The notes under the pieces are model-generated. The model was not told the origin of the DNA. It ran no database searches and saw only the letters and a program-made list of their open reading frames with translations. A DNA stretch of 64,000 nucleotides from Actinomycetota bacterium (GTDB lineage Bacteria > Actinomycetota > Actinomycetes > Mycobacteriales > Mycobacteriaceae). The DNA is taken from the NCBI GenBank assembly GCA_018268465.1, contig JAFDWN010000002.1:446097-510096 (forward strand), in the 5' to 3' direction. The translations under genes were made by a program, and so were the position numbers. Below are positions 3,165-19,794 of this stretch, piece by piece (within the stretch, counting starts at the first letter, position 1; the number at the start of each line of letters is the position of its first letter).

Positions 3165-3372
3165 ACCACGTACTTCTCGTCGACGAAAGCAATCATGTGA
3201 GCCCCACGACACGGCCTGTCTCGATGGGTGCCAGCATGACACCGGACCTCGGTTGGCACGTTGTGAAATGACCAATTGGGTAAGGCACCGATACGGGCCA
3301 CCGCCGGACCCACCAGCCCCGCGCCGTGACACCTCAGGACTCCGGGTGACGGCCCATGAGGTGTCGCGAAAG

Positions 3373-3424
3373 AAGTGGAGCTAAGGGGAATCGAACCCCT
3401 GACCTACTCGATGCGAACGAGTCG
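3373..3424. repeat. Left 52-bp direct repeat: 3' fragment of tRNA-Ala(CGC), att-site candidate
   Basis: Perfectly identical, in the same orientation, to 19719-19770. Bases 3376-3424 reproduce the minus-strand tRNA-Ala 3' half from the discriminator base through the T arm to the anticodon stem; identity stops abruptly at 3425. With no D arm or 5' acceptor strand it cannot be a functional tRNA. This is the structure left by site-specific integration into a tRNA 3' end. Confidence 0.85.
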
Positions 3425-3706
3425 AACTGGGCGTTTACAGCCGAAAGCTGTGCGAGCGGCGCGAGGACATGCAGGTCACAGCGTTTGATTCCGCGAGCCG
3501 ATCGAAGCTGAGCGAGCTATGCTGCGGCCCCAAAGCGGCCCGGACCGACCGCAGCAAACAGCAGCGTCGACGGCGTGGCCGTTGAAATCCCCCAGGAGAC
3601 CCGCCGATACAAGGGACGTACGGGGCGGCTGTGTTCGCCGCTCTGCGTCGGCGCTCAGGGCCTCATTTCCAGCGCCAGCGCCTATCGTCGTTAAGCGGCT
3701 TGCCGG

Positions 3707-4150
3707 TCAGCGCTCCCAGCGCCAATACCGTGTGCCGTCGTAGAACGGGTTCCGCCCGCCGTCCATGTCGTCGCTGAAAACCTCGACCGAACCCGCCGAT
3801 TCCAGCGCGGCGTCCATCAGCCGCCGTCGTCGGCGTCGGCGCGGTAGATCTCCATCAGGCCGACCGGGCGGCCCAGCGGCGTCCAGCCAGCGATCATGTT
3901 CGGTCACCGTGGGCACATCCTCGCCCGGCAAGGTCACCACTTCCCGCTCGATGCCGACATAGCCCAATGGCAGTCGCACCGGCTGCTCGTCCTCGGTGCC
4001 GTCCAGCATCGCCCGCTCGGCCTCGGTCAGGTCGCCGTGGTCGTCGGTGACAGCGGGCCGGTCGAGATACGCGACCGGTGAGCGGCTGTCGTCATCGGCA
4101 CGGGCGACCGCCCCGAACCCGGAGGTCTCCTTACGAAGGCTTTCCAGCAT
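3707..4150 (-). pseudogene. Unrecognised hypothetical gene, probably frameshifted, plus a 36-codon ORF
   Basis: From ATG 4150 a frame with good codon usage reads MLESLRKETSGFGAVARADD, continuing to a VTEHDRWLDA stretch near 3885. The same frame then becomes improbable (a run of arginines), while the neighbouring frame gives a natural-looking end, LGRPVGLMEIYRADADDGG, stopping at 3817. A one-base indel near 3880 would join them. Overlapping that stop (TGATG) is a 36-codon ORF, 3817-3707, rich in Asp/Gly and ending RYWRWER. I recognise no family. It lies at the left edge of the island and may be debris. Confidence 0.35.
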
Positions 4151-4322
4151 GCCTCGGAGGGAAAGGTGGCGGACCAGGCCGGGGCGGCGGTTCCGGCAGC
4201 AGCCGTCGCTATTGACCGAGACAATTGTGGCATCAACGACGCAATGCAACCCGCCGCCCAGCGTTCCGAATTCTCCCCGCGGAGCGATCGTCCGGGTGGC
4301 AAAACCACGCTTCCGCGGTCAC

Positions 4323-4934
4323 CTACAACTCACCAAACATTGTGCGCACTCCGAGCCCGACGAGGGCGACACCGGCGCAGACGGTGAGTGCGGAGCGCAC
4401 TGCGGGCCGGTCCAGCACGACTGCGCTGCTGCCGAGAAACCAGATGAGCCCACCGAACCATAGCGTGTCCACGGCTGCCCAAATCACGGCGAGACCGACT
4501 TCGGTCGGCAACGGCGGAAATCCTTCGGGCACGAACTGAGGCAAGAAGGACAGCGAGAAGATCGCAGCCTTAGGGTTCGTCATGTTGGCGAGGAGGCCTG
4601 CCTGAAACGCCGCACGGTGGCTCGCGGACGGGGTGCTGCCCGGCGGTGTCGAGGTGAGTTTGCGCGCCGTCCATAGAGCCTGGGTGCCCAGCAGGACAAG
4701 AAGAGCCGCACAAACGACCCGCATCAACGTGAGGGCCGTGGGTGAGCTCGCGATGATAACCGCTAACCCCGCACCGGACGCGATGCCCCACAAGATCAAC
4801 GACAGTTCGTTGCCCACTAGGGTGAAGACTGCGCTGCGGCGGCCGTGCGCCAAAAGTTGACGGAGCACGATCATCGCGCCCGGGCCGGGCACCATCGCCA
4901 ACAGCAAACATGTCCCGATGAACAGCAGGATCAT
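4323..4934 (-). CDS. LysE/RhtB-family amino acid exporter
   Basis: A 203-residue inner-membrane protein with about six helices. It opens with the LysE/RhtB signature MVPGPGAMIVLRQ and has the later GLLANMTNPKAAIFSLSFLPQF segment typical of the family (NPKA plus aromatic residues). Such proteins export amino acids or their analogues by proton motive force. The ATG at 4934 lies 12 bp after the aldehyde dehydrogenase stop without a clear ribosome-binding site of its own, suggesting translational coupling as the last gene of a GMC-ALDH-LysE operon. Export of the amino-acid-like product, or of a by-product, of the two oxidation steps would fit but is inferred. Confidence 0.85.
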   Translation of the reverse strand: MILLFIGTCLLLAMVPGPGAMIVLRQLLAHGRRSAVFTLVGNELSLILWGIASGAGLAVIIASSPTALTLMRVVCAALLVLLGTQALWTARKLTSTPPGSTPSASHRAAFQAGLLANMTNPKAAIFSLSFLPQFVPEGFPPLPTEVGLAVIWAAVDTLWFGGLIWFLGSSAVVLDRPAVRSALTVCAGVALVGLGVRTMFGEL

Positions 4935-4946
4935 TGGCCAGCTGTC

Positions 4947-6371
4947 TTAGTACTGGATTGACTTGGTTTCGAGGAACTCCTCGAACCCGGCTTGGCCGAA
5001 CTCTCTGCCGATTCCCGACTGTTTGTAGCCGCCGAAGGGTGCCAGCAGGTTGTTGGCTGCGCCGTTGATGTCGACGCGTCCGGTGCGCAACCGACGAGCG
5101 GCGGCCGTCGCGTGCTCGACATCAGCGGAGAACACGGCGCCGTGCAGCCCAAAATCGGTGCTGTTGGCGATCCGAATGGCGTCGTCTTCGGAGTCATAGG
5201 GCATCAAGCACACGACCGGGCCGAAGATCTCTTCGCAGGCCACAGTCATTGAGGGTGTCACGTCGGACAACACCGTCCCCGAGACGAAGTAGCCACGCTC
5301 GGATTCAGGCGGCTGAGCGGCCCCGCCGGTCACCAGGTTTGCCCCTTGCGCGACGGCGCCGGCAATGTAGTCGCGAACTCTCTTCTGTTGATTGCGGGAT
5401 ACCAGAGGCCCCAGCGTGGTCGACGGGTCCATCGGATCGCCGAGCCGATACGATTCAGCGGTTGCCCGTGCGATGTCCTCGGCCTCCGCCAGTCGCCCCC
5501 GCGGGACAAGCAGACGGCTCCATGCAAAGCAGGCTTGGCCACTCGCGAAGAAAACTTGCCGCACACCGGCGTCGACGGCGGTGGCGAGATCGGCATCGGG
5601 TAGAACCAGGTTGGCGCTCTTGCCGCCGAGTTCGAGATTGACCTTCTTGACCGACGCCGCAGCAAGTTCATAAACGCGCTTACCGGCGCGCGTCGAACCG
5701 GTGAATGCCACCATGTCGACGTCGCGATGACGGACCAATTGTTCACCGATGTGCGGTCCGGTGCCAATCACCATGTTGTACACGCCGGCGGGAACACCCG
5801 CCGTGTCGAAGATTTCGGCGAGCAATAACGTGTTCAGCGGAGTCAGTTCGCTGGGCTTGTGAACGACCGTGCAACCGGCTGCCATTGCCGGGATGATCTT
5901 CGACATCGACAACAGCAGCGGATAGTTCCACGGCGAGATCGCCGCGACCACGCCAAACGGCTCGCGGAATACCCGCGAATTGGCCACGGTGCGGTAGCCG
6001 TCCTGGTCGTAGCCCTGCAGAATGTCGATATTCGTCTGCAGTAAGTGCTGGGCGAGGCCGACCTGCAGTTGGCGGGATTCCACCAGCGGCGTCCCGACTT
6101 CCGCGCAGATCACTTCTGCCATTTCGTCGGCGCGGCGATCAAGCTCGGCCCCGAGTGCCTCGAGAATCTCCCGCCGCTCCGCGGCGGGCGTCGCTGACCA
6201 GGGGTGAAACGCAACGCTTGCCGCGGTCACCGCGTCGTCGACATCCGACGGCGTGGACGAGCGCACGTGGGCGATGGTTTCTTCTGTGGCCGGGTTGTCG
6301 ATGCAGAATCGTTCAGGCCCGGCGACGTCGGTGAACTGTCCGTTGGTGTATTGGCGTGCGTAGGTGATCAC
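4947..6371 (-). CDS. NAD(P)-dependent aldehyde dehydrogenase
   Basis: A 474-residue aldehyde dehydrogenase of usual family length. It has the nucleotide-binding stretch FGVVAAISPWNYPL, FTGSTRAGKRVYE, the general-base Glu in NLELGGKSANLV and the catalytic Cys in FASGQACFAWSRL. It oxidises an aldehyde to the acid. The GTG start overlaps the GMC oxidoreductase stop (GTGA) and has AAAGGA at the right distance, so it is the second gene of the operon. An alcohol oxidase/dehydrogenase followed by an ALDH suggests an alcohol-to-acid pathway similar in layout to choline-to-betaine. The substrate cannot be read from sequence. Confidence 0.92.
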   Translation of the reverse strand: MITYARQYTNGQFTDVAGPERFCIDNPATEETIAHVRSSTPSDVDDAVTAASVAFHPWSATPAAERREILEALGAELDRRADEMAEVICAEVGTPLVESRQLQVGLAQHLLQTNIDILQGYDQDGYRTVANSRVFREPFGVVAAISPWNYPLLLSMSKIIPAMAAGCTVVHKPSELTPLNTLLLAEIFDTAGVPAGVYNMVIGTGPHIGEQLVRHRDVDMVAFTGSTRAGKRVYELAAASVKKVNLELGGKSANLVLPDADLATAVDAGVRQVFFASGQACFAWSRLLVPRGRLAEAEDIARATAESYRLGDPMDPSTTLGPLVSRNQQKRVRDYIAGAVAQGANLVTGGAAQPPESERGYFVSGTVLSDVTPSMTVACEEIFGPVVCLMPYDSEDDAIRIANSTDFGLHGAVFSADVEHATAAARRLRTGRVDINGAANNLLAPFGGYKQSGIGREFGQAGFEEFLETKSIQY

Positions 6372-7912
6372 AGCGAATCCTTTTGAGGTGAAGTGGTTTT
6401 AAAGGCGAGATTGGATGAGATGAGATCGGCGGCGCGCCAACCGATCATCATGGCGGCGAGATTGGTCGTGCCTCTCGGGAGGTGCGGCATGACGGAGGCA
6501 TCGGCGACGTACAGCCGATCGATGCCGTGCACACCGAGGTTCGGCCCGACGACCGCGTCGGCCCCGGCTCCCATCCGGCAGGTGCCGACCGGATGGTGAT
6601 AGGTCACTGCGCGCGAACGTAGCTCTGGCTCGGCGAGGGGATAGCTCCACCATGCGTCGTCGGGTACCTTCACCACCCCACGCGACGCCGCGGCGGCGAT
6701 CACCTCGCGTGCGTGGGCCAACAGCGCAGCGCCGGTCGTCAGATCGTTGGCGTGAGTGAAGTGGCCCAGGTGTACCTCAGCACGTCCATGTGCGTTGAGA
6801 ACCAGCCGGCCACGGCTGACAGGCGTCATCAGAGCGACCGTCACCGAAGCCTGCGACGGGCGGGCGCCCGGGTCGAAACATGCTGTCTGGTAGGCGAACA
6901 CGTGGCCGAGATGCTTCCCAGGCAGATCCGGTTCGAAGGTCAACAGCGAGCCGTGGGCGGCGCCACGCGGGTAGTGATCGCCCGCGTGGACGTCGACGAT
7001 CATCTGGAGGAATGGGTGGTCGGCGAGGTTACGGCCGACGGCGGGAAGATCGGCGACAACAGCGACGTCCGCGACGCGTAGGTCGTCGGCGTCGCCGATG
7101 CCTGAAGCAAACAGAATTTCTGGCGACCCGAACGTCCCGGCGGCCAGGACAATTGCGTCGCCGTCAACGATCTCCGGACCCCTGTCGCTCTCGACGAGGA
7201 CGCCGCACGCGGTTCCATTGGCTGTGACGACTCGGCGTACCAGGCTGGACGGCCGGATGGTGACGTTTGGCCTGGCGCGTAGATGCGGCAACAACTGCAG
7301 TAGGGTGCTGGCGCGGTCGCCGGAGACCCGGTTGGTGGGCCACGGCGCGTAACCGAAGGCGTCGGGTTCGTTGTGGTCCTCGATTGCGCGATGGCCGAGA
7401 GTTTCGAATACCCCGTTGAGTTCGGCGTCGAAATTGTCAGCCGGAAATCGTGTGATGGGGATGGGACCGGCGTCGCCGTGATACGGCAGATTGCCGAATT
7501 GCTGGTCACTTTCGAGGCCCACGAATGCTGGCAGGCAGTCCCGCCAGGTCCAGCCCGGCCCCCATGCGTCGAAACACCGGGGGTGACCACGCACTGCGGC
7601 CGCCGCGTTCGCTGCCGAGGTCCCGCCGAGGACCTTACCGCGCGGAAGAAATGTGCCGGTGTCGGCCGCGACGTAGTCCCAGTAGAACTCGTTCGGCAAT
7701 AACATGTGCCGGCGTAGCGAGAGGGGCACGAGGGGGCCAGGATCGACGCCGGCATCGAGGAGGATGACGTGAACTGCTGGGTCGGCGGATAGCCGCCAGG
7801 CGGCCATCATTCCCGCTGACCCTGCGCCGACGATGACGATTGTGCCCGCGTGCGCAGTCGGCGTCTGTTCCTCTGCGCCCTTTGCTGTCGTCGTATGGAT
7901 CGTCATGGACAT
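6368..7912 (-). CDS. GMC-family FAD-dependent alcohol oxidoreductase
   Basis: Glucose-methanol-choline family flavoprotein of 514 residues. The N-terminal FAD-binding Rossmann motif is TIVIVGAGSAGMMAAW. GGTSAANAAAAVRGHP matches the first GMC signature, GTFGSPEILFASGIG the second, and the C-terminal catalytic region has HHPVGTCRMG and PRGTTNLAAMMIGWRAAD. It oxidises an alcohol to an aldehyde for the ALDH encoded directly downstream. ATG codons at 7912 and 7906 are both possible; GGAAAGG is only one base from the first and seven from the second, so 7906 may be the true start. A 41-bp element shared with cstA lies about 45 bp upstream. Confidence 0.9.
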   Translation of the reverse strand: MSMTIHTTTAKGAEEQTPTAHAGTIVIVGAGSAGMMAAWRLSADPAVHVILLDAGVDPGPLVPLSLRRHMLLPNEFYWDYVAADTGTFLPRGKVLGGTSAANAAAAVRGHPRCFDAWGPGWTWRDCLPAFVGLESDQQFGNLPYHGDAGPIPITRFPADNFDAELNGVFETLGHRAIEDHNEPDAFGYAPWPTNRVSGDRASTLLQLLPHLRARPNVTIRPSSLVRRVVTANGTACGVLVESDRGPEIVDGDAIVLAAGTFGSPEILFASGIGDADDLRVADVAVVADLPAVGRNLADHPFLQMIVDVHAGDHYPRGAAHGSLLTFEPDLPGKHLGHVFAYQTACFDPGARPSQASVTVALMTPVSRGRLVLNAHGRAEVHLGHFTHANDLTTGAALLAHAREVIAAAASRGVVKVPDDAWWSYPLAEPELRSRAVTYHHPVGTCRMGAGADAVVGPNLGVHGIDRLYVADASVMPHLPRGTTNLAAMMIGWRAADLISSNLAFKTTSPQKDSL

Positions 7913-7955
7913 GCCTTTCCAGAGTTGGTGGACTGTTGAAGAATCCCGCGAACAT

Positions 7956-7996
7956 CTTTCGAACTTCTTGCCCGAGATTGGAAGAGCTTCTTAAGC
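7956..7996 (-). promoter_or_regulatory. 41-bp element upstream of the GMC-ALDH-LysE operon (copy 1)
   Basis: It matches 10558-10598, upstream of cstA, at 30 of 41 positions with no gaps. Both copies are on the strand of the gene they precede. The best conserved parts, read on the minus strand, are a leading GCTTA, then CGG-CAAG, two variable bases, and GTTCGAAAG. The distances to the start codons are similar (44 and 49 bp). It is likely a common promoter or regulator-binding region. Confidence 0.5.
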
Positions 7997-8098
7997 CGCA
8001 GAATGCTGGCCAGCGATTTCACGTCCAGTACTGCGACTTCGATCTGACGGCCGCAAAGTTTTATCCGACAACACATCTCGTGAACCTGTCGCACGGTG

Positions 8099-8290
8099 CT
8101 AACAGCAGCGGGGTGAGGGACTGCTGTCGATCGCATCGTGACGGGTGCGCCAGTAGTCGCGCTGCGACAGCACTGGCTCATCGGGATAACACCCGCCGCG
8201 GTGCTCGATATACCGTCTGTAATGGTTATCGCCCATCAACGTGGCCCAGTACCAACTGATTTGATGGGCGATTTCGCCAGCGCGTCCCAT
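8099..8290 (-). CDS. YbdD/DUF466-family small partner of CstA
   Basis: A 63-residue protein matching the short YbdD/YjiX family, which accompanies CstA transporters: LMGDNHYRRYIEHRGGCYPD, then LSQRDYWRTRHDAID and the family-typical Arg-Cys-Cys end. As written it starts at ATG 8290, inside the 3' end of cstA (55-bp overlap). An internal ATG at the LMGDN position is a less likely alternative because it would drop the N-terminal helix. Coupling to cstA supports a joint role in uptake. It is easily overlooked because of its size and overlap. Confidence 0.8.
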   Translation of the reverse strand: MGRAGEIAHQISWYWATLMGDNHYRRYIEHRGGCYPDEPVLSQRDYWRTRHDAIDSSPSPRCC

Positions 8291-10509
8291 TGCTCTTGCA
8301 CCTCCCGTTCTGCTCTTGTCGCGATGAGCCCGGAGGGCTCGAACAGTCGTGACGCCACAGCCTCGTTTTCGGGGAGAGGAGGACCTTGGCCGCGAATCGC
8401 GCGAAGGGCCACGATCACTCCAGCGACGAAGATGACGATCACTAGCGCCGCGAACACGATCGACAGCGATCCTTGAATGAAGGTGTTGCGGACGATCTTG
8501 TCGACTTCGGAAGGGGTCTTCGCCGTCAGGCACAGCCTGCCGGCCTCCTGGGCGGCCCGGCAGATGCCGTGCTGTTTCCAGTACCCGAGCTTCGGGTCGG
8601 CCGACAAGATCTTCTGCCAGGACGCCGTCATCGTCACGATGAGGTCCCAGAGCAGCGGAACCGCGGGTATCCACGCCCATTTCAGTAGCCCGCCTTTGAT
8701 CACCGCGACGGCGACGACGGTCAGCGCGATGGCTGCCAGCAGTTGGTTGGCGATACCGAACAACGGGAAGAGGGTGTTGATCCCGCCGAGCGGATCGGTG
8801 ACCCCCATCAGCAGGATCGCGCCCCATGCAGCGACGATGACGATGCTGCAGATCCACGCGCCGACGCGCCAACTGGGGTTTTTCAGCATGCGCAGCGGAC
8901 CGCCGAAGTTGCTCAACCCGTCTGACAGCATGAAACGCGCCACCCGCGTCCCCGCGTCAACCGTAGTGAGGATGAACAGCGCCTCGAACATGAGGGCGAA
9001 GTGGTACCAGAACGCTTGGAGCGCTTCGCCGCCGAACACCCGGTGCAGCACTTCGGACATGCCGATCGCCAGGGTGGGTGCGCCGCCGGTGCGCGAGACG
9101 ATCGACTCTTCACCGACGTTCTCGGCGATTCTGGCGAGTTGGTCGGGCGTTATCGGGGCGCCGGACAATCGAAGTCCGTTGACGTATTCGGCTGCCGTCG
9201 CGCCGGTGGCTCCGGTTTGGGCCGAAGATGCGTTGATGGCGAAATACAGGTGCTGGTTCAGGATTGCCGCGGTGATGAGCGCCATGATGCCGACAAAAGA
9301 CTCGGTGAGCATGCCGCCATAGCCGATCAACCGCATCTGGCCTTCTTTCTTGAGCAGTTTCGGTGTGGTGCCTGACGAGATCAGGGCGTGAAACCCCGAG
9401 AGGGCGCCGCACGCGATCGTGATGAACAGGAATGGAAATAGTGAGCCCGCGAAGACGGGTCCGTTGCCGGTACTCGCGAATTGCGAGATCGCGGGCGCTT
9501 CAATGTTGGGTCGAGCGAGCAGGATTCCAAGCGCCAACAGTGCGACGGTGCCAACCTTCATAAAAGTCGACAGGTAGTCGCGTGGCGCCAGCAGGAACCA
9601 CACCGGCAGCACCGAGGCCGCGAAGCCGTAAACGATGATGCACCACGACAGCGACACCTTCGACAGCGTGAACCAGTCTGCGCCCCAAGCTGTTCCGGAA
9701 ACATAGCCGCCCATGATCACGGCGAGCAGAAGCAGTGTAACGCCGATGAGCGAGACTTCGGACACTCGGCCGGGACGGAAAAACCTCAGATACAGGCCCA
9801 TGAATATGGCGATGGGGATAGTCATCGCTATGGAAAAGACACCCCACGGGCTTTCGGCAAGCGCGCCTACCACAACCAGGGCCAGCACCGCGAGCAGGAT
9901 CACCATGATGACGAGGACGCCCACGATAGCCGCGGCGCCGCCTATCACCCCGAGTTCGTCCCGAGCCATCTGGCCGAGGGAGCGCCCGCGCCTACGCGTG
10001 GAAATCCACAGCACCAGATAGTCCTGAACACAGCCGGCGAACACTGCGCCGACGATGATCCATATCGTGCCCGGCAGATAGCCCATCTGCATGGCCAGCA
10101 CTGGGCCGATCAACGGGCCCGCACCTGCGATCGCCGCGAAGTGATGGCCGAACAGCACGCGCCGATCGGTCGGCATGTAGTCGACGGCGTTCTCGAAACG
10201 TTCTGCGGGCGTTGCATTGTCGTCGCGCGGACAGACAATCTTCATCTCGATCAGCCGCGCATAGAACCGGAATCCGATCACGTAGGTGCAGATTGCGGCG
10301 ATCACGAACCAGACGGCGTTTACGGTCTCACCGCGCAAGAATGCGATGACCGCCCACGCAATGGCGCCAAGAACTGCGATGATCCCGAAGACGATCTTGT
10401 GGCGGGCGGTGATCGGGGATCGATCGATGACGGCGACCGGCGGCATATCCTCGTCGGTACGGATGTAAGTGACGTTGCCGTGGGTCACTGACGCGACAGA
10501 CCGGGGCAT
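8236..10509 (-). CDS. cstA: CstA-family carbon-starvation transporter
   Basis: A large polytopic membrane protein of 757 residues with many helices, in family length range. The diagnostic N-terminal portion is present: FRFYARLIEMKIV, then the conserved VLFGHHFAAIAGAGPLIGPV, and LSGFHALISSGTTPKLL in the centre. The family is known for peptide or pyruvate uptake under carbon limitation. ATG 10509 is preferred over an in-frame GTG at 10524 because GGAAGG precedes it by seven bases and the GTG lies inside that site. It is followed by the overlapping YbdD-like gene and preceded by the shared 41-bp element. Confidence 0.93.
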   Translation of the reverse strand: MPRSVASVTHGNVTYIRTDEDMPPVAVIDRSPITARHKIVFGIIAVLGAIAWAVIAFLRGETVNAVWFVIAAICTYVIGFRFYARLIEMKIVCPRDDNATPAERFENAVDYMPTDRRVLFGHHFAAIAGAGPLIGPVLAMQMGYLPGTIWIIVGAVFAGCVQDYLVLWISTRRRGRSLGQMARDELGVIGGAAAIVGVLVIMVILLAVLALVVVGALAESPWGVFSIAMTIPIAIFMGLYLRFFRPGRVSEVSLIGVTLLLLAVIMGGYVSGTAWGADWFTLSKVSLSWCIIVYGFAASVLPVWFLLAPRDYLSTFMKVGTVALLALGILLARPNIEAPAISQFASTGNGPVFAGSLFPFLFITIACGALSGFHALISSGTTPKLLKKEGQMRLIGYGGMLTESFVGIMALITAAILNQHLYFAINASSAQTGATGATAAEYVNGLRLSGAPITPDQLARIAENVGEESIVSRTGGAPTLAIGMSEVLHRVFGGEALQAFWYHFALMFEALFILTTVDAGTRVARFMLSDGLSNFGGPLRMLKNPSWRVGAWICSIVIVAAWGAILLMGVTDPLGGINTLFPLFGIANQLLAAIALTVVAVAVIKGGLLKWAWIPAVPLLWDLIVTMTASWQKILSADPKLGYWKQHGICRAAQEAGRLCLTAKTPSEVDKIVRNTFIQGSLSIVFAALVIVIFVAGVIVALRAIRGQGPPLPENEAVASRLFEPSGLIATRAEREVQEQWDALAKSPIKSVGTGPR

Positions 10510-10557
10510 AAGGATTCCTTCCACGCGTTATGGACTCCACGAGCATCGCGTGGGCGC

Positions 10558-10598
10558 CTTTCGAACGACTTGTCCGCGTCTGAAAGGTTTTCGTAAGC
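10558..10598 (-). promoter_or_regulatory. 41-bp element upstream of cstA (copy 2)
   Basis: Counterpart of 7956-7996, with 30 of 41 bases identical. It lies in the 112-bp gap between cstA and the divergent methyltransferase gene, so a factor bound here could affect both. It ends 49 bp before the cstA start. Confidence 0.5.
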
Positions 10599-10621
10599 GC
10601 CACGATCTCCAATCGGCGATT

Positions 10622-11434: not shown

Positions 11435-13519
11435 ATCACGAGTCGCAGCAGCCTGCAGTGCGTCTCGTTCCCGTTCTACCCGCGTAGCTGCCGGAAGTAA
11501 GTCATAGGCATCGAGCGCCGCGCGCCACCATCGCCGGGCAGACTCCCGACTGCCTTGCCGCTCGGCCTGCTCGGCGGCGAGTCGACAGGCTTTGACAACC
11601 GCGATTGGGTCTACCGCCGGAAGCGCGGAGATCAAATGCTGAGCCCTGCGCGCCACCGCGTCATCTGCTCCTGAGTCGGACAGTGCCGCCGCGATCCCGG
11701 CATGCAGTCGCTGCACCTGCATCGCTGGCATGCTGGCGATGATTTCTTCGCGGAGGAGACTGTGCACGAAGGTGAACTCTTCATGGCAATACGCAGCGGT
11801 GAGAATTTGTTCGCGGACCGCCACATCCAAACACCGTGCGAGCTCGTCTAGGTCTTGACCCGTGCTGCGGGCGAGCAGGACGGTGTCGACGGTGTCGCCA
11901 ACCACCGCAGCGCTGCGCAGCATGTCCAGCGCGGTAGGCTCCATTCCGACTATTCGCCGCTTCAGCAGCGTTCTCACCGCCAGTGGAATCATCGCCTTCC
12001 ACTCCCGGCGAGGAAGACGCGCATATTCCAGAACGAAGAACGGATTGCCTCCGGTGCGCATCGTCAGTTCCGCGGCATCGTCCTCGGTGAGGGGGTCGGT
12101 GCAGACCTGGCTGGCCAGCGCACGAACCTCTGGCGCAGCTAGCGGCCCCACGGTGATACGCCGGTTGCCGTTGGCGCGGACAGCCGCCGACATCAACAGC
12201 TCGACGCCGTCGGTGTGCTGGCCGTCGCGCACGGTGGCCACGAACAGCAACGGCGCATTTCTCACGGCGCCAGCCAGATACGCCAGGCAGGCCATCGATG
12301 TCGCGTCGGCCCACTGGATATCGTCGATGACTATCGTCGTCGGCTGCAGGTGAGCCTCGAACAGTAGGTGCAGACGCTCATAGATGTGAAATCGCACGAT
12401 GGCGGGATCCTCGTCGCGGTGGGTAAACAACTCGTCGGTATCGGCACCCAGGGCGCGCGCTATTTGACGCATGGTCCACCAGGGGGGCGTGCTGCGCTCG
12501 TCCGGGCACGTCACCCAAACCGACGCTGCACCTGTAGACGCCGCCTTGGCAATCGATTCTTCGGCCAAGCGGGTCTTTCCGATTCCCGGTAGACCGGTCA
12601 GCACCAGCCACCTGGTCGCCCGCGTGGCGACATCGCCGAGAAGATCTGTGATGGCGGTTATTTCGCGGTGACGGCCAACCAGCTGGATACGCCGCACGAG
12701 GGAAACCGCCCTGGCAGAGCCGGGCTCGGCGGGTGCAGCCGGTGCCGGAACGTGCGGCCATCGAGCCAGTTCAGGCGCGTGGTGCAGAATCGCCGATTGC
12801 AACTCGCGCAGATCCTGGCCGGGATCTAAGCCGAGGTCATCAGACAGCTGCCTGGAGCATGCGGCGAAGGCGTCAAGCGCCTCGGGGCCGCGCCCGGCGC
12901 GATACAGCGCCATCATGTGTAACCAGCACCCGCGCTCGCGGTATGGGTCGGCGACGCGTAGCTGCGCAGCCTCGTTCAGCGCTTCCCCGAAGCGGTCAAA
13001 GGCCAACAGCGCCGTGACGTGATTCGCACTATTCTCGTTATTTAGCTCGTTGATCCGCGCGGCCTCGCCGCGGAACCACTCCGCCTCACCCAGGTCTTCG
13101 AGAAGCGGACCGCGCCAGAGCCGCAGCGCGGCTTCAGAGGCCGCGAGGGCGTCATGCCAACGCCCGACGTCGACGGCCGACCGCGCCGCCGAACTCTCGT
13201 TCTCGAACGCAGTGAGATCGATGTGCTCGGGATCAACGTCGAGAACATAACCGGGTGGGCGGCGCATGATCGGCCACGCACAGCCGGGCTGACCGCCCAG
13301 CACCTTACGCAACGAGGACACATGCACGTGTAGACCGGAGGTAGACCGGTCTGGCGCGTGAAGACCCCAAGCCGCCTCGACCAGCCGATCAGCGGATACG
13401 ACCCGCCCGCGAGCTAACAGCAGCGCGGCCAGCACAGCCCGCCGCTTGGGCGGACCGACGTCGATCCGTCCCGATTCGCTTTCGACTTCCAGCGGACCGA
13501 GTAACCGATACCGCACCAT
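11429..13519 (-). CDS. SARP/AfsR-like transcriptional regulator with AAA ATPase domain
   Basis: A 696-residue regulator. Residues 1-90 form an OmpR-type winged helix (RYRLLGPLEVE, PPKRRAVLAALLLARGRVV), followed to about residue 250 by a bacterial transcriptional activation (BTAD) domain. From about 285 there is a P-loop ATPase with Walker A LVLTGLPGIGKTRLAEE and Walker B-like TTIVIDDIQWAD. The C-terminus lacks the long TPR/LuxR part seen in larger relatives. ATG 13519 has AAGGG eight bases upstream; an ATG-less extension to 13558 is unlikely. It is the only obvious activator in the island, so control of cstA and the GMC operon through the shared 41-bp element is possible but only inferred from proximity. 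Confidence 0.85.
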   Translation of the reverse strand: MVRYRLLGPLEVESESGRIDVGPPKRRAVLAALLLARGRVVSADRLVEAAWGLHAPDRSTSGLHVHVSSLRKVLGGQPGCAWPIMRRPPGYVLDVDPEHIDLTAFENESSAARSAVDVGRWHDALAASEAALRLWRGPLLEDLGEAEWFRGEAARINELNNENSANHVTALLAFDRFGEALNEAAQLRVADPYRERGCWLHMMALYRAGRGPEALDAFAACSRQLSDDLGLDPGQDLRELQSAILHHAPELARWPHVPAPAAPAEPGSARAVSLVRRIQLVGRHREITAITDLLGDVATRATRWLVLTGLPGIGKTRLAEESIAKAASTGAASVWVTCPDERSTPPWWTMRQIARALGADTDELFTHRDEDPAIVRFHIYERLHLLFEAHLQPTTIVIDDIQWADATSMACLAYLAGAVRNAPLLFVATVRDGQHTDGVELLMSAAVRANGNRRITVGPLAAPEVRALASQVCTDPLTEDDAAELTMRTGGNPFFVLEYARLPRREWKAMIPLAVRTLLKRRIVGMEPTALDMLRSAAVVGDTVDTVLLARSTGQDLDELARCLDVAVREQILTAAYCHEEFTFVHSLLREEIIASMPAMQVQRLHAGIAAALSDSGADDAVARRAQHLISALPAVDPIAVVKACRLAAEQAERQGSRESARRWWRAALDAYDLLPAATRVERERDALQAAATRDS

Positions 13520-13669
13520 GCAACCAACCCTTGTCACAGCACCCACGCAGTCCGACACCGTCGGCGGAACATCGGGCAGCTACCCAATCAGGCACAGAGG
13601 CCATCAGACGCATAAATAGTGTGCGGGACTACACCGACCGTTACGCGATAACCCGGAAATCTTCGTCGC

Positions 13670-14020
13670 TTGTCGGCGCGGGCGGCGATGGGGTCGGACC
13701 ACGCCACCGCGCTACGCGACGCATTCCTGCGGCTCGGCGTCGACCACGAACCCAGCGCAGGCCGCCGCTGGACACGCATCGCCCCACAGCACCGCGGCAC
13801 GCGCCGAACTGCAACCATCGCCGCGGTCGCCTACTACTGCGAAGAAGACACCGTGCGCGCCGGCTCGGCGCTCGGCGACGCCGTAGTCGCCACCGACGAC
13901 AGCGTGTTACCTGGATTCGCCGAAATCATCTACACCGCCCTAAAACCAGGAATGCCGCCATCGCGCATCCGCTCGGTCATCCCCAACCGCACTGCTCCGA
14001 TACCGGGCACCACGCTCTAG
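13670..14020 (+). pseudogene. DUF4192-like C-terminal fragment
   Basis: The 116-codon frame resembles the end of actinobacterial DUF4192 proteins: ATIAAVAYYCEEDTVRAG, then LPGFAEIIYTALKPGMPPSR. Full-length members are much longer, so the N-terminal part is missing. Its TAG stop sits exactly on the TA dinucleotide where the IS630 element inserted; because the base after the target is also G, the stop is unchanged by the insertion. The first residues have no ribosome-binding site. The family call is from pattern only. Confidence 0.45.
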
Positions 14021-15117
14021 TGTCCTGAGTCATTAATTCGGGTGCAGTAGTTGCCGATGCTGGTCAGGATTTGGTCGGCGGTCTTGGTCCAGACGTAGGG
14101 GCGTGGGTTGTCGTTCCACGTGTCGATCCAGTTGCGGATGTCGGTGTTGAGTTGGCGGACCGAGGTGTGGGTGCCGCGGCGCAGTTTCTTGGTGGTCAGC
14201 TCGGAGAACCAGCGTTCGACGAGGTTGAGCCAGGAGGAACTGGTCGGGGTGAAGTGCAGGACGAAGCGGGGATGGTGTGTCAGCCAGCGCTTTACTGCCG
14301 GGGTCTTGTGGGTGGAGGCGTTGTCGAGCACGACGTGGCAGTCCAGATCGGCGGGGACGTTGGCGTCGATCTTCTTGAGGAACGCCAGGAATTCCTGGGA
14401 GCGGTGTCGGGCGTGCAGGGAGCCGATAACCTGGCCGGTGGCCAGGTCGAGGGCCGCGTACAGGCTCGAGGTGCCGTGGCGGACGTAGTCGTGGCTGGCC
14501 CGCGCCGCAGTGCCGGGCAGCATCGGGAACACCGGCTGCGTTCGGTTGAGGGCGTGGATCTGGGTTTTCTCGTCGACGCAGAGCACCACGGCCCGTTCCG
14601 GTGGGTCCAGGTAGAGGCCGACGACGTCGCGGACCTTCTCCACGAACAACGGATCCTTGGACAGCGTCCACGAATCCTGTATGTGCGGTGCCAGTCCGAA
14701 GGCCCGCCAGACGCGGGAGACCATCGACTGGCTCAACCCGAGATGATCGGCCATCGACCGGGTCGACCAGTGCGTGGCATCCGGCGGGGTGGTCTCCAGC
14801 GTCGCGGTGATCAAGTCTTTGATCTTCTCGTCGCCGACCACCCGGGGCCGGCCCGGACGGGGCTCATCGAGCAGTCCGTCGAGGCGCTCGACGACGAACC
14901 GATTACGCCAGCGGCGCACCGTCGTGATCGACAACTCCAGCCGATCAGCCAACTCCGTATTGGAGCCACCGTCAGCTGCTGCCAACACAATTCGCGCTCT
15001 CATCGCCAAGCCGGCCGCGCTGGTCCGTCGCCGGGCCCAGCCCTCCAACTCGGCCCGCTCGTCAGGGGTCAACACAATCTCGGCAGCACGAGGAGTCGGC
15101 ACGACCCAGTTTAACAA
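14017..15117 (-). CDS. IS630-family DDE transposase
   Basis: A 366-residue transposase. The N-terminal helix-turn-helix segment (residues 15-90) carries LTPDERAELEGWARRRTSA, and a second HTH follows near 120-145. The DDE catalytic triad is readable as D182 (VDEKTQ), D265 (VVLDNASTHKT) and E301 (WLNLVERWFS); the 35-residue spacing between the last two is typical of the family. The frame begins with TTG at 15117; GTG at 15102 is an alternative. The stop codon TAG is completed outside the element by the TA target duplication and preceding C, so another insertion site could change the C-terminus. Confidence 0.93.
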   Translation of the reverse strand: MLNWVVPTPRAAEIVLTPDERAELEGWARRRTSAAGLAMRARIVLAAADGGSNTELADRLELSITTVRRWRNRFVVERLDGLLDEPRPGRPRVVGDEKIKDLITATLETTPPDATHWSTRSMADHLGLSQSMVSRVWRAFGLAPHIQDSWTLSKDPLFVEKVRDVVGLYLDPPERAVVLCVDEKTQIHALNRTQPVFPMLPGTAARASHDYVRHGTSSLYAALDLATGQVIGSLHARHRSQEFLAFLKKIDANVPADLDCHVVLDNASTHKTPAVKRWLTHHPRFVLHFTPTSSSWLNLVERWFSELTTKKLRRGTHTSVRQLNTDIRNWIDTWNDNPRPYVWTKTADQILTSIGNYCTRINDSGH

Positions 15118-15145
15118 CTAGATTGCAATTAATGACTCAGGACAC
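14020..15145. mobile_element. Complete IS630-family insertion sequence (1,126 bp)
   Basis: The element is bounded by perfect 19-bp terminal inverted repeats, GTGTCCTGAGTCATTAATT at 14020-14038 and its reverse complement at 15127-15145. A TA dinucleotide flanks each end (14018-14019 and 15146-15147), the duplicated TA target characteristic of IS630/Tc1-mariner elements. The single transposase frame is intact, so the copy could be recent and active. Confidence 0.93.
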
Positions 15146-15148
15146 TAG

Positions 15149-15738
15149 CAGATCTTCACGAGCCGGCCAGGTGCCCTACCAATGGCCCGGCCGGCATACC
15201 TGTATCGCGGCCTACCACTCGACGATTGCGGTGCCGGTGCCAAATCCCACACGTGCACGTTGGCAAGCCAAGCGACACGACCTAGCTGGACGAAGAGCGC
15301 CGCCGACGCCAACTCGATCTTCACCATCACACTCTCCAACATCCCTATTGCATCAATCCTTCGATCCCCACTCACGACGCCACGCCACCCAACTCCTCAC
15401 CCACCGCCCCATTGCCCAACACCATCAACCTCCTCCCGACCAAAAACCGCACGGGCACATTGGCACAGGGGGTGCAATGCTGATTGCGGCTGCCGCGACG
15501 AAACACTTTCGGCAGCAGTCGGATTAGCATTGAAGGCTGCGCCCCCGTCCGCATGCCTCGGCGGTTATGTGTTGGCCGATCAGACCCACGCATGGAATGC
15601 TTCGCGTGCCTTTTCTCGTCCTGAGGAGGCTCAGGACCAGTACTCATCCCAACGCGCTGACGGCTCGGCGCGTTCCTAGACCTGCCGCAGACTGTGTCCG
15701 CGGCACGTGAATTCTGACCCCGGCGCGCCGCCAGGGGG
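15149..15738. other. 590-bp stretch without a convincing gene
   Basis: Between the IS630 right end and the DUF4062 gene only short frames occur on both strands (under 100 codons), with uneven codon usage and no recognisable motifs or good ribosome-binding sites. The base composition is patchier than in the flanking genes (C-rich, A-rich runs). It probably represents decayed sequence. Confidence 0.5.
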
Positions 15739-16389
15739 TCAATTTTCAGCCGCCGCCGACAGACTGGGCGCGTTCGTCACGCCGGTACCCAGCACGTGGA
15801 ATTCGAGCACCGGCGCGGATACCCAGGCCGACACGGTGCGGTTGCGCCCGCCGACGAACCGGCTTGCCGGAATTGTGGCCGCAGAAAGCTCGACCTCGCT
15901 CAACCACGGCACCGTCACAGGTTCCTGCGGTGTTGTGCGCGGAATCGGACCCCGTTCTGCGTCAAGTGCTTTCAGCGCTTCACCGACCGCCTGATTGCAA
16001 CTGGCCGGGTCGGTGAACGAGCGCCACAGGCGCCCGTTTACGTAGTGGCCGACCTCCCGCTTGAAATCAGCCTGGGCCGGTTCGTCTTCCTCATCAACAA
16101 GCTTGTTGAACACCAGGATGGGGATGCCACGTTGACGAGCGCGCCGGAACTCCTCCGCCGTCGGCGACAGACCGGTATCGGGAAACGGTGTCCCATAACG
16201 CGGGCCAAGCAACAGGACGTATACATCGGCCGCCTCGACTCCAGCCGGGCATGCCTCCCGGCTCGACCGGTCCTGAGCTTCGAAGTCCTCGAACCTCAGC
16301 GGCTCGTGATCGAACAACCTCAGGAACGGTGGGAGGCCCCTGCGCTCCTCCTTGAGCAGGTGCGTGACCGAGGAGATGAAGACCTTCAT
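15739..16389 (-). CDS. DUF4062-domain protein (TIR/SLOG-like, defence-associated family)
   Basis: A 216-residue protein. It begins MKVFISSVTHLLKEERRGL, the DUF4062 hallmark (KVFISS followed by an EER helix), and continues with ADVYVLLLGPRYG and GIPILVFNKL, the alternating strand-helix pattern of this TIR/nucleoside-deoxyribosyltransferase-like fold, to about residue 130. The remaining part is unassigned. ATG 16389 has AGAGGAG five bases upstream. DUF4062 domains are often the N-terminal sensor of larger NTPases near defence genes; here no NTPase domain follows, so the protein is either a short form or truncated. It is divergent from the adjacent toxin-antitoxin operon. Confidence 0.7.
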   Translation of the reverse strand: MKVFISSVTHLLKEERRGLPPFLRLFDHEPLRFEDFEAQDRSSREACPAGVEAADVYVLLLGPRYGTPFPDTGLSPTAEEFRRARQRGIPILVFNKLVDEEDEPAQADFKREVGHYVNGRLWRSFTDPASCNQAVGEALKALDAERGPIPRTTPQEPVTVPWLSEVELSAATIPASRFVGGRNRTVSAWVSAPVLEFHVLGTGVTNAPSLSAAAEN

Positions 16390-16449
16390 GCCGCTCCTCT
16401 GCAGTAGTCGATCGATCAGCGGATCCGTTATGGCACACGGGCGCGGTTG

Positions 16450-16487
16450 AAAGTGTATTGCACTTTCCGGAAATTGTCATACACTTT
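16450..16487. promoter_or_regulatory. Palindromic operator of the toxin-antitoxin operon
   Basis: AAAGTGTAT (16450-16458) and ATACACTTT (16479-16487) are perfect inverted repeats. A third half-site, CACTTT (16461-16466), pairs with the first at closer spacing. The array sits 5-42 bp before the toxin start, in the divergent gap to the DUF4062 gene. This suits autoregulation by the ribbon-helix-helix antitoxin. Confidence 0.65.
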
Positions 16488-16491
16488 ACGG

Positions 16492-16788
16492 GTGCAGATC
16501 GTGATCCGATCCAGCGCGCGCGCACACCTCATCACCGATGAAGAAGCGAGGACCGTGATCGCATATCCCGCGTTGCGCGTCGGGCTTGCTCCCCGGCGAG
16601 CGAACACGGCGCCCGTGCTGTTCATCGGGCCAGCCGCCGCCAACCAGCCGTGGATCGAGGTCATCGCCGACCTCACCGACCCCAACGTCGCCGAGGTATT
16701 CCACGCAATGATGCTGCGCTCCGGCCTCATCACCCGCCTCGGCCTCGACTCGCTGGTAGATCCCGACTACGGCCCTCAGCGGGCCTGA
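16492..16788 (+). CDS. Putative toxin of a toxin-antitoxin pair
   Basis: A 98-residue protein with the layout of small actinobacterial toxins encoded before RHH antitoxins: VIRSSARAHLITDEEARTV at the start, a central LFIGPAA strand with WIEVIADL, and VFHAMMLR near the end, equivalent to the V-I-H-A-M-x-x-R motif of that group (related to the BrnT/DUF4258-like fold). GTG 16492 or 16501 may be used; neither has a strong ribosome-binding site, and the promoter palindrome is immediately upstream. The gene order toxin then antitoxin, 21 bp apart, supports the role. The activity (probably RNase-like) is inferred. Confidence 0.6.
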   Translation: MQIVIRSSARAHLITDEEARTVIAYPALRVGLAPRRANTAPVLFIGPAAANQPWIEVIADLTDPNVAEVFHAMMLRSGLITRLGLDSLVDPDYGPQRA

Positions 16789-16809
16789 TCATTGAAAGGA
16801 ATCATCGAC

Positions 16810-17292
16810 ATGGGCAAGTCCAGAATCACTGACGACGAATACGCCGCGATGGCCGCCGACTACGAGGCCAATCCACCAACGGCAGCCGAAGTCACCTCGG
16901 TCGAGCTAAATCCCGCCTACTTGCCGACGGGGCGCCCGAACAAGGGGACTCGGACAACAGGCAAGACACCGGTTCTAGCGATCCGTCTTCCCGAAACACT
17001 TCGCAACGAATTGGTGCACAGCGCCAACGTCCAGGGAGCAACGCCCTCGGAAATGGTCCGCCGCGCCGTGGTCGACAGCGTGGCGTTCTACGTGCTGTGG
17101 GAGCAGACGTTCGACGGTGACGAGTGGCAATGGGTCCGCTTCGACAAAGCACTGACACCACAAGACGCCGAAGAGATGTTCAAACACTTCTCACGCCTCG
17201 CGCCGACCCATGGCTACCGCCGCGTCCAGATCCGCCACGGCCGCGACGAAGTCATCAAAGAGTGGACAGCACCGATACGCGAAAAAACCTGA
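16810..17292 (+). CDS. RHH-type antitoxin with an extra C-terminal domain
   Basis: A 160-residue protein. After an N-terminal segment with ITDDEYAAMAADYEANPPT, a ribbon-helix-helix DNA-binding region occurs at about residues 55-90 (TPVLAIRLPETLRNELVHSA, then TPSEMVRRAVVDS). Ordinary relatives end here; this one continues for about 70 residues with many aromatics (YVLWEQTFDGDEWQWVRFD) that I cannot assign. The extension reads like a separate small protein joined in frame. ATG 16810 is preceded by AAAGGA. The next recognisable coding sequence, 15 bp on, is a broken JetB end, so this gene may have acquired its tail when the Wadjet locus was rearranged. Confidence 0.65.
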   Translation: MGKSRITDDEYAAMAADYEANPPTAAEVTSVELNPAYLPTGRPNKGTRTTGKTPVLAIRLPETLRNELVHSANVQGATPSEMVRRAVVDSVAFYVLWEQTFDGDEWQWVRFDKALTPQDAEEMFKHFSRLAPTHGYRRVQIRHGRDEVIKEWTAPIREKT

Positions 17293-17306
17293 ACTCAGCA
17301 TCGCTC

Positions 17307-17447
17307 GTGTCTCCTGCCGACAGTCCCGCCCGGTTCGAAGTGTCGCCGGTCCTGCGGCAGTTGTTCGACGCCGACGAGGTGGCCCTGGTCGAAGCCGAAT
17401 ACCGCCGACTCCTGGAAATCCACGCGGACGGGAACGGCGATGGGTGA
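17307..17447 (+). pseudogene. jetB: Wadjet JetB (MksE-like) C-terminal fragment
   Basis: Only the last 46 codons remain, with RFEVSPVLRQLFDADEVALV and EAEYRRLLEI, matching the end of JetB/MksE kleisin-associated subunits. The fragment overlaps the next start (ATGGGTGAGG) by eight bases, as jetB and jetC normally do. No JetA and no upstream part of JetB is present: the DNA before it belongs to the antitoxin gene. Family identification is from the C-terminal motif together with the JetC and JetD remains next to it. Confidence 0.6.
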
Positions 17448-18735
17448 GGACGTGCTGCGGCCCGGCCAGCACCGGCTGGCCCGTGTTCAGCTGTTCAACT
17501 GGGGCACCTATGACGGCTACCACGACTTGCCCGTAGCTCGTCGTGGCTTCCTGATCACCGGCCCCTCGGGATCGGGCAAGTCCACCCTGCTCGACGCGAT
17601 CTCCGCGGTGCTGGTAAACGCCGCCGCGCAGGGCCGCGGCCGCACCGTGGCGTCCTACATCCGCGGTGCTTACGCCCGGGGTTCCGATACCGAGACCCGC
17701 GAGCTGCGGGCCCGCTACCTGCGCGAGGGCGCCACCTGGAGTGCGGTCGGGCTCACCATGCGCACCGCGGGCGACGACGGCGACACGGTCACCACCTTGA
17801 TCGTGCTGTTCCATCTCAAACGAGGCAGCAACGACGTCGGCGAGTCGGGCCGCGCCTTCCTGTTGTTCGAACACGACCTCGATATCACCGAATTACGGCA
17901 CTGGTGACCGATGGCATCGACGTCCGCGCGCTCAAGAAGCGCTGGCCGGAACTGCTCTACAACAAGAGCTACCCACAGTTCGGGCAACGGTTACGAGGCC
18001 GACTGGGCATCGCCGACGAGAACGCACAGCTGCTGTTGCACCGCGCCATGTCGGCCAAAGGGCTCGACAGCCTCGACCGATTGTTCCGCGACTACATGCT
18101 CGACGAACCCGACACCTTCGGTGAGGCGCGCCGCGCGGTGGAGTTCTTCGCCGACCTGGACGAGGCGCACCGCAAGGTCGTGCAGACACGCGAACAGATC
18201 ACTGCGCTCGAACCGCTCGAGTCGTTGACCGCGACCCGCGACCGAGCCGAGCAGGAGACGCGGGCACTCGGCGAGGAGCTGGACGCCCTGGCAGCGCGCT
18301 TCGAACTCGACCTGGCTCAGGGTTGGCGCACCGATGCCGAGGCCGGGCACGCCCACGCGATCACCCGGGAGGAACAGGCCCACGCGGCTCGGCAGGCCAC
18401 CGCGACCGCGCTCAAGGAGGCCGAACGCGCCCGAGACGGGAATCAGTCGCTGCGCGAACTCCCTGACGCTCTCGACCACGCCGACGAACGCGTTCGATGG
18501 GTGTCCAGCTGGCGCCCTGGGGTGCGGCGGTACCCGACACCGCCGAGGAGTTCGCCACCTTCCGATCCCAGATCAGCAGGGAGGCAGCGGAATTGGCGGA
18601 CAGCGCCGCCGAACACGATGCCGCTCACGGCGCACTGATGCTCGCCTCGGCACGCGCCGACGACCTTGTCTCCGAGCTGAAACAACAGATCGCTTCACTC
18701 GCGCGCGAGAAATCGAACATCGATCACAAGCTGCT
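17440..18735 (+). pseudogene. jetC: Wadjet JetC (SMC-like ATPase) relic with two frameshifts and lost C-terminus
   Basis: The N-terminus is clear: RLARVQLFNWGTYDGYHDLP then Walker A FLITGPSGSGKSTLLDAIS. The first frame stops at 17907 after ITELRHW; the neighbouring frame resumes at 17904 with VTDGIDVRALKKRWPELLYN and continues into coiled-coil sequence; a second shift near 18500 leads into a third frame (FRSQISREAAELADSAAEHD). JetC proteins usually exceed 1,000 residues, but here the sequence ends in the coiled coil at about 18735 (KSNIDHKLLE). The ABC signature and Walker B, located in the missing C-terminal head, are gone, so no ATPase can form. Confidence 0.75.
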
Positions 18736-19474
18736 GGAACACGGCACTATCCACTGCCTTCCGCTATTGGAACACATTGGCGGACAACGATTTCGACTGA
18801 TCGCCGTCCTAGCGTGGCTGCGCCAGAATCCCGCCTCGGGACTACTGATTCGTCAGTTGCCGGTCCCCGGCGTTGATACCAAGTGGGTTGGCACCCATCG
18901 TGTCACGGTGACATCACTTGCGGTTCCGCTCGGCGTACCCGAACATCTGGGGCTGCGGGAACGTGAACTTCTGCGGGCTGTCGCGATCCTCGATCCTGCG
19001 CATCGGCGAGGTCTTCCGCGCCTGTTTGCAGCCTCGGACAGTGACCTCGCGACCCTCGAGATGAGGCCGCCACAGGTTCTTGTGGTGGAAAACCTCCAGA
19101 CGTTGGAAGCTCTGCGTGACGTACCGGACACCGTCGCCGTGTTCGGATGGGGTGGCCATGCGATGGCGGTCGCCGAGTTCCCCTGGGTGCGTGACGCACC
19201 ACGCGTGCGCTACTGGGGCGATCTGGACGCCGACGGCTTCGCCATACTGGCTCGCTTCCGCGCGAAGCGCTCCTGCGAAAGCCTGCTGATGGACGTCGCC
19301 ACGATAGAAGGCTGGCGTGACCTCGCGGTGCAGCACCCCGCGACCGAACCCGTCGACGCCAGTCAGTTGACGGTCGACAAACTCGCAGCTCTGGAACTAC
19401 TGCGCCGTGACGGTCTCCGGCTGGAGCAGGAACGGATTCCGATAAATATCGCCATGGGCATGATTCGAGGCTGA
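18736..19474 (+). pseudogene. jetD: Wadjet JetD (TOPRIM nuclease) C-terminal part fused to the JetC relic
   Basis: This part continues in frame with the JetC coiled coil, so one open frame spans both genes (18497-19474). JetD features: LIAVLAWLRQNPASG, LPVPGVDTKWVGTHR, then a TOPRIM domain with the Glu in VLVVENLQTLEAL and the DxD motif in RYWGDLDADGFAI. About 245 residues remain of a family protein near 400; the N-terminal DNA-binding part has been deleted along with the end of JetC. The catalytic acidic residues are intact, but without JetA, JetB and JetC it cannot act as Wadjet. It lies 248 bp from the tRNA att site. Confidence 0.75.
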
Positions 19475-19718
19475 CCATCACGAGCGCGATCATCCGAGGG
19501 TTGTGAAACCTCCACCAACCTGCCATCGGGTTCGGATAGGAGAAACCCGACGCCAGCAGCCCTTATCGACGGATGGGTCTAAGTGGCCAGAAGCTTCTGG
19601 CCGCTTGGCCAGCCCGAACAAGGTGGTTGAACGATTGCGCCATCGATGATTCGGGCCGAGAACGGATCCATAAGAGAGCAGATACGAAGGTTCGGGTAAG
19701 GACACTAAGGTGTCCGAA

Positions 19719-19770
19719 AAGTGGAGCTAAGGGGAATCGAACCCCTGACCTACTCGATGCGAACGAGTCG
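19719..19770. repeat. Right 52-bp direct repeat within tRNA-Ala, att-site candidate
   Basis: Identical to 3373-3424. It covers the tRNA 3' half plus three bases beyond the discriminator; identity between the copies ends in the D-loop side of the anticodon stem. An incoming element sharing this sequence would have rebuilt a complete tRNA at this end. Confidence 0.85.
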
Positions 19771-19794
19771 CGCTACCAACTGCGCCATAGCCCC
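19722..19794 (-). tRNA. tRNA-Ala (anticodon CGC)
   Basis: The minus strand folds as a 73-nt tRNA: acceptor strands GGGGCTA and TAGCTCC plus discriminator A, a D arm with GCGCAGTTGGTAGCGC, an anticodon stem ACTCG/CGAGT enclosing the loop TTCGCAT (anticodon CGC), and a T arm AGGGG-TTCGATT-CCCCT. CCA is not encoded. It reads GCG codons and is the integration target of the island on its 3' side. Confidence 0.95.

Follow-up and report, generated by a model that had tools for sequence, protein, structure and literature searches.

Phages and candidate phage-inducible chromosomal islands (PICIs) have been described at mycobacterial transfer RNA (tRNA) genes (PMC10654092, PMC8092301), and a further report has successive prophages stacking at one tRNA attachment site (PMC9934374). 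Mycobacteriophage Ms6 targets the tRNA-alaV (CGC) gene in bacille Calmette-Guérin (BCG), and because Ms6-based vectors use this tRNA in BCG its natural occupancy is of practical interest (PMC1762012). A mycobacterial integrative and conjugative element is also on record; from what that source presents, it is not close to the island treated here (PMC7478629). We analysed a 64,000-nucleotide stretch of an Actinomycetota bacterium of the Mycobacteriaceae (GCA_018268465.1, JAFDWN010000002.1, 446,097 to 510,096; hereafter the window), in which the 3' part of a tRNA-Ala(CGC) gene is repeated at a distance from the intact gene. We consider it probable that the locus is a decayed, composite island at a genus-wide hot spot, and that the repeat marks one layer of it and not the exact edges of one clean island.

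Results

The distal repeat copy and its conserved arm

The two copies of the 52-bp direct repeat are identical at 52/52 positions with a spacing of 16,346 (Table 1); the second-longest direct repeat within 1-26000 is 44 nt at 73%. ARAGORN calls a single tRNA in the whole window, tRNA-Ala(CGC), and makes no call at 3373. The repeat runs from tRNA position 25 through the 3' end and two bases beyond. Because the tRNA gene is on the minus strand, the island lies downstream of its 3' end, as with an insertion into the 3' part that restores the gene. A preliminary description of this DNA had read the perfect repeat, with a lone 3' part on the left and an intact tRNA on the right, as site-specific integration in the correct orientation, and the alignment, the ARAGORN call and the repeat geometry bear this out. 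It had also placed conserved backbone to the right, which agrees with our search: a tRNA-plus-neighbour query matched in 98/98 genomes of the genus, own included, and the right-hand neighbours score as SepX/GlpR, RimJ-like (below cut-off) and Glp. A chance origin of the repeat was rejected on its identity, its tRNA derivation and the conserved arm described below.

At least 8 of 97 other genomes of the genus carry a second core copy near tRNA-Ala(CGC), a floor, since at most five candidates were scored per genome. Two cores were confirmed in each of those eight loci, 3.2-11.6 kb apart. In most of them the far core is followed at once by CTGGGCGTTT or a near variant, with GCAGGTCA about 45 bp further, which forms an arm of the element's own attachment site (attP). 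A weight matrix of 16 such arms from other genomes, window excluded, ranks position 3425 first of 247,496 positions on both strands of the window plus 60 kb to its left, at 27.9 bits vs 10.0 for the runner-up. For alignment, L207 was omitted (insertion), L060 was shortened by 10 nt and L103 was moved by 1 nt; on leave-one-out, L059 scored poorly (-15.3) and L114 (19.5) and L200 (24.5) weakly. The core plus arm pattern, with up to 3 mismatches, occurs in 9 of 396 genomes including our own, and a reversed control in 0. A left-junction search of 396 genomes, with two candidates scored in each, matched at least 10, own included. Five of the nine others share core and arm only. The other four (G041, G373, G144, G112) match the left-flank gene at 2385-3163, G144 on a contig other than that of its tRNA locus, and no tRNA was found near the match in the stretch scanned in G041 and G373.

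Judged from its sequence, the left copy is an attachment-site fossil: a tRNA-Ala(CGC) core stands at the far end, and the conserved attP arm comes directly after it. The opposite arm on the tRNA side, which by eye is TGACCTGC-like in many loci and about 10-20 bp from the core, is absent from the window, as is the integrase. Duplication of the tRNA 3' part without any integrase would fit a contig on which no integrase remains, but the copy has an integrase-family arm directly 3' of it, and we regard such an origin as very improbable. In G208, ARAGORN places a tRNA-Cys (L103, 18455-18553) where another family-A remnant has its far att core and arm; this call is likely false, built from the tRNA 3' part.

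The integrase family at tRNA-Ala(CGC)

The preliminary description suggested a search of other mycobacteria for integrases with this core beside tRNA-Ala(CGC), and such integrases were found. A family of tyrosine integrases of about 394 amino acids, labelled family A in this analysis, adjoins tRNA-Ala(CGC) in other mycobacteria, Gordonia and Williamsia. Intact members lie 31-37 bp from the core in G046, G021 and G056, with a mutual identity of 81-83%, and about 1.8 kb from it in G019. G063 and G010 have C-terminal fragments only, and none was seen in the two-core loci of G068 and G009. Of the 12 integrases from named genomes that reach at least 53% identity, 10 adjoin tRNA-Ala(CGC), the other two being at tRNA-Pro and at no tRNA; three of these ten loci duplicate genus-genome loci or G313. 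A second core is present within the examined stretch at 6/10 (L199, L200, L201, L202, L204 and L207) and was not found there in L203, L206, L209 and L210. Ten less similar integrases, of 68 kept, were scanned for tRNAs and none lies by a tRNA-Ala gene: three neighbour tRNA-Arg(CCT), two a tRNA-Phe/Asp/Glu cluster, one tRNA-Ser and four, L214 among them, no tRNA. A 57%-identical relative of the family-A integrase in Gordonia amarae (L208) adjoins tRNA-Pro(CGG), possibly a change of integration target.

Family-A elements differ in the genes that accompany the integrase. G056 has an excisionase-like helix-turn-helix (HTH) protein, a repressor-like protein and an AAA_25/helicase-like ATPase. Major head protein genes are found in L200 (M. 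xanthum) and L204 (Gordonia sihwensis), and L204 has a portal gene as well. Judging by these companions, the family spans plasmid-like and satellite-like elements.

The island itself has no such integrase. None of the 26 PF00589 matches in the genome (all 32 candidates scored) lies on the window's contig, no integrase remnant was matched within 19475-19718 at E up to 10, and no family-A integrase was found in the whole genome, where the best match is 40% over 229 amino acids. With the integrase and the opposite arm gone and none elsewhere in the genome, the earlier view of a frozen island is supported, and since no integrase lies inside it next to the tRNA, we file it as a remnant and not as a working element. 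As a separate observation, G083 has 64 PF00589 matches, several of them equal in score and spacing, a pattern like that of repeated cassettes with multiple recombinases.

The left edge lies inside a hot spot

The next conserved gene on the left, pat (NF058543), is at 426506-427609 of the contig, 38,206 bp from the tRNA. The proposal that position 3372 abuts backbone therefore fails: backbone stands outside the right repeat but not outside the left one, where 21.9 kb of accessory DNA intervenes before pat. This block includes a universal stress protein, an ABC-2 transporter and a flavin oxidoreductase. By eye, the part left of the window (L005, 1416-20000) has two universal stress proteins, Acg-like nitroreductases and an AMP-ligase, resembling a dormancy set; confirmation covers only one stress protein and the ABC-2 transporter. 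The guanine-cytosine (GC) fraction is 0.617-0.627 in 1-3000, 0.615-0.660 in 3001-19000 and mostly 0.66-0.72 right of 20000. It is on average lower from about 9 kb left of the window, with no step at 3373. Across the 60 kb left of the window, no further match to the att core exceeds 28/52, so that no second att fossil bounds the left accessory block.

The distance from pat to the tRNA was surveyed in 98 genomes of the genus, counting cases where the two share a contig, are oriented as expected and lie less than 200 kb apart; 23 genomes had no match or had the two on different contigs, and 3 of the remaining 75, with gaps above 450 kb and likely rearranged, were excluded. Across the 72 left, own included, the gap runs from 383 bp (G083) to 198 kb with a median of 11.9 kb. 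It is below 10 kb in 31, at least 20 kb in 20 and larger than our own in 8. G095 is nearly empty, with a gap of 659 bp and one core in the 10 kb scanned. Read from these genomes, the tRNA-Ala(CGC) site is a genus-wide integration hot spot. A literature search on tRNA-Ala islands and hot spots in mycobacteria, with subscription journals mostly outside it, showed no title describing this one among those listed.

A single 16.3-kb island, cleanly inserted in the backbone at tRNA-Ala(CGC) and later deprived of its integrase, would explain the perfect repeat, its orientation and the conserved arm at the left copy. It leaves aside the accessory DNA to the left of the repeat, where no GC change occurs, and the recurrence of the right-end cargo elsewhere with its own trailer at tRNA-Ala(GGC), and we find it unlikely. 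An assembly artefact or a foreign contig might be suspected in a genome of 72 contigs scored as 5.86% contaminated, but the contig is 570,844 bases long and has genes conserved in the genus to either side of the locus, pat to the left and both sepX and glp to the right, which makes this explanation scarcely credible.

The right part resembles islands at another tRNA-Ala gene

The preliminary description had delimited one 16.4-kb island to the base, an account left without support by the separate recurrence of its right-end features at another tRNA-Ala. Window positions 15760-17274, which cover the truncated DUF4062 gene and the small protein, are 87% identical to a stretch of G291 about 3 kb from tRNA-Ala(GGC). 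In G314, a JetD remnant ends beside tRNA-Ala(GGC), likewise next to the tRNA. Between the Wadjet remnant and our own tRNA is the trailer common to the islands of G314 and G291, two genomes that were chosen for their cargo match and not for the trailer. The motif TTAC[CT]CGAAC after a tRNA-Ala-type 3' end was found in 4 of 76 distinct sequences from the loci examined, those of the window, G314, G291 and G002, the last without the fuller trailer pattern. With one mismatch allowed, the fuller pattern occurs in 1/93 genomes, our own; the 92 other genus genomes, a set that includes G002 and not G314 or G291, are negative, and the pattern is absent from viral contigs. In the tRNA sense the hairpin of the trailer is predicted at -9.7 kcal/mol (z -2.8) and may act as a terminator; a promoter and terminator scan of 19475-19830 found none, and the trailer has no T run.

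The defence cargo named earlier stands in so far as JetC and JetD profiles match, and falls as an intact system, since in place of intact jetA, jetB, jetC and jetD only JetC and JetD parts are present. No JetA or JetB match was obtained among five proteins scanned with PADLOC. The two matching jet halves are 2.3 kb apart in G096 and 20 bp apart in the window, which suggests an internal deletion. No tRNA-Ala was found within the other nine loci of jet-gene relatives (13.9-19.5 kb each). The short piece at which the DUF4062 gene breaks off is, at a guess, the remnant of an insertion sequence (IS) end.

These matches suggest that the right part derives from a different tRNA-Ala-associated island type, and it may have arrived as a second integration. 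More tentatively, a second, unnamed island family with Wadjet or DUF4062 modules could move among tRNA-Ala(CGC) and tRNA-Ala(GGC) genes, bring its hairpin trailer along, and have landed here inside a family-A site; one tRNA would then carry the record of two or more integration layers. No second core was found beyond tRNA-Ala(GGC) within 11 kb in G291 or 18 kb in G314, which argues against a simple intact island there. The right part may instead owe nothing to a second integration: homologous recombination between tRNA-Ala loci could have swapped it in, or it could have formed as a single family-A island decayed and took up insertions. Recombination between the isoacceptor loci is possible given that 29-30 of the 3' 30 bases of tRNA-Ala(GGC) and (CGC) are identical, and a second-type integrase was not found in the loci examined. 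However, trailer and cargo pieces occur together in both G314 and G291, and the two islands have in common a small HTH gene, absent from the window, as expected of a travelling unit. We regard this alternative as possible but doubtful.

Cargo of the interior

The predicted genes between the left att site and the right part (Table 1) look like a set for small-molecule oxidation and uptake. Choline or betaine use is possible, with the specific models scoring below cut-off. For the GMC oxidoreductase, the top-scoring model is the mycofactocin dehydrogenase MftG, at a score under its cut-off. A further cstA on contig C23 of the same genome (125072-127453) is 77% identical to that of the island, and the best matches in many sampled genomes of the genus are cstA-like at 72-80%. 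A DNA search with the whole interior, scoring the best three candidates in each of 98 genus genomes, recovered, among the matches listed, cstA, the IS and separate gene-sized pieces (aldehyde dehydrogenase, BTAD regulator, jetC/jetD). Finding the same interior without the repeat in relatives had been put forward as evidence against an island; it was not seen whole, and pieces of it were. No relatives of the GMC protein were found among genome contigs, a search from which our own record was possibly excluded. When phages and plasmids were searched with window 1-20000, the matches listed were confined to the tRNA core, cstA, the IS and the flavin oxidoreductase on the left. None of the 19 island open reading frames (ORFs) scanned has a phage-type Pfam family and the contig has no integrase, features at odds with a PICI or phage satellite.

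Table 1. Features of the tRNA-Ala(CGC) locus, in window coordinates
Feature	Coordinates	Strand	Basis or remark
Left flank, also accessory	1..3372		Low GC; not the genes adjoining tRNA-distal backbone in relatives; extends about 18.5 kb left of the window
Distal repeat copy, attachment-site core	3373..3424	+	tRNA-Ala(CGC) 3' part without 5' part
Interior between repeats	3425..19718	not assigned	16,294 bp
Conserved attP arm	3425..3478	+	CTGGGCGTTT directly 3' of core (3427-3436); GCAGGTCA at 3471-3478
LysE-type exporter	4323..4934	-	PF01810
Aldehyde dehydrogenase	4947..6371	-	PF00171; betaine-aldehyde dehydrogenase models below cut-off
GMC oxidoreductase	6368..7912	-	PF05199/PF00732; MftG, BetA models below cut-off
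CstA family protein	8236..10524	-	PF02554; pyruvate/proton symporter CstA model below cut-off
S-adenosylmethionine-dependent methyltransferase	10469..11434	+	PF13847
BTAD/AAA transcriptional regulator	11429..13558	-	PF03704, PF13191
IS630-family insertion sequence	14017..15148	-	22-bp perfect terminal inverted repeats
Short piece where DUF4062 gene breaks off	15693..15763		Matches two other genus genomes at 94-96%
DUF4062 gene, truncated	15739..16389	-	216 amino acids vs 391 in G291
Small protein	16792..17292	+	No Pfam match; by eye alone ribbon-helix-helix-like; G291 counterpart 90% identical
Broken Wadjet type I remnant	17440..19474	+	Three ORF pieces cover JetC profile positions 8-461 of 1112; fusion to JetD starts at its position 105
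tRNA trailer with hairpin, 30 bp	19689..19718	-	Common to tRNA-Ala(GGC) islands of G314 and G291
Proximal repeat copy	19719..19770	+	Within intact tRNA gene
Intact tRNA-Ala(CGC)	19721..19794	-	ARAGORN

Discussion

The decayed, composite island that we favour would have begun with a family-A element whose attP core recombined with the 3' part of tRNA-Ala(CGC). Such an event would keep the tRNA intact and leave the tRNA 3' part and the element's arm at the far end, as found at 3373-3478. The right end of the element, its integrase and other mobile genes would have been lost later. The DUF4062 gene, the Wadjet remnant and the trailer, whose pieces are shared with tRNA-Ala(GGC) loci of two other species, would come from the other island type, with the metabolic genes and the IS630 element lying between them and the left att site, and the further accessory DNA would account for the distance from the repeat to pat.

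Several observations weigh against this account. The core alone does not prove family A: in Mycolicibacillus koreensis (L214, 10001-11415) an integrase with just 46% identity to family A terminates close to a core-like sequence (44/50), in a stretch where no tRNA was found. The arm in the window is one base shorter between its two motifs than the consensus of other arms. The integrase and far end of the second island type were not found in the G291 and G314 loci examined, and the trailer could be an old, inherited tRNA terminator and not the end of an element. Identity of the repeats at 52/52 positions is also what a single recent event would produce. A base-exact empty site is lacking because no close relative was found among 364 of 397 genomes (33 unscored), with one candidate scored per genome and the best having about 82% identity in a conserved gene.

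Two points reach beyond this locus. With the conserved attP arm, a remnant that has lost its integrase can be identified and placed in an integrase family; a tRNA repeat by itself does not permit this. In a hot spot, the repeat-bounded interval gives a misleading edge, as here, where over half of the 38.2 kb between tRNA and pat is outside the repeat.

Compared with known systems, the island is a decayed instance of an already known kind, the tRNA-targeted integrative element. It has the same tRNA-alaV (CGC) target as Ms6, but the Ms6 core is given as 26 bp in the T-loop, whereas the core here is 52 bp and reaches past the anticodon, a comparison of cores and not of integrases (PMC1762012). 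In Gordonia phage BetterKatz and M. abscessus prophiGD11-3, a tyrosine integrase adjoins 37-38 bp of this tRNA core; their core match ends earlier, the matches listed show no further similarity to the window, and their integrases were not individually compared with family A. Candidate mycobacterial PICIs and prophages, as PMC10654092 describes them, have a tyrosine integrase at tRNA genes and in some cases capsid genes, and the family-A loci L200 and L204 likewise carry a major head protein; unlike them, the island ORFs scanned contain no capsid, replication or integrase family. In the tandem prophages of PMC9934374, core copies can still be recognised between the prophages and on either side of them, whereas in the window one far core is left. 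Relative to Wadjet type I (JetABCD), JetC and JetD are recognisable by profile in a remnant that has shed most of JetC and the start of JetD.

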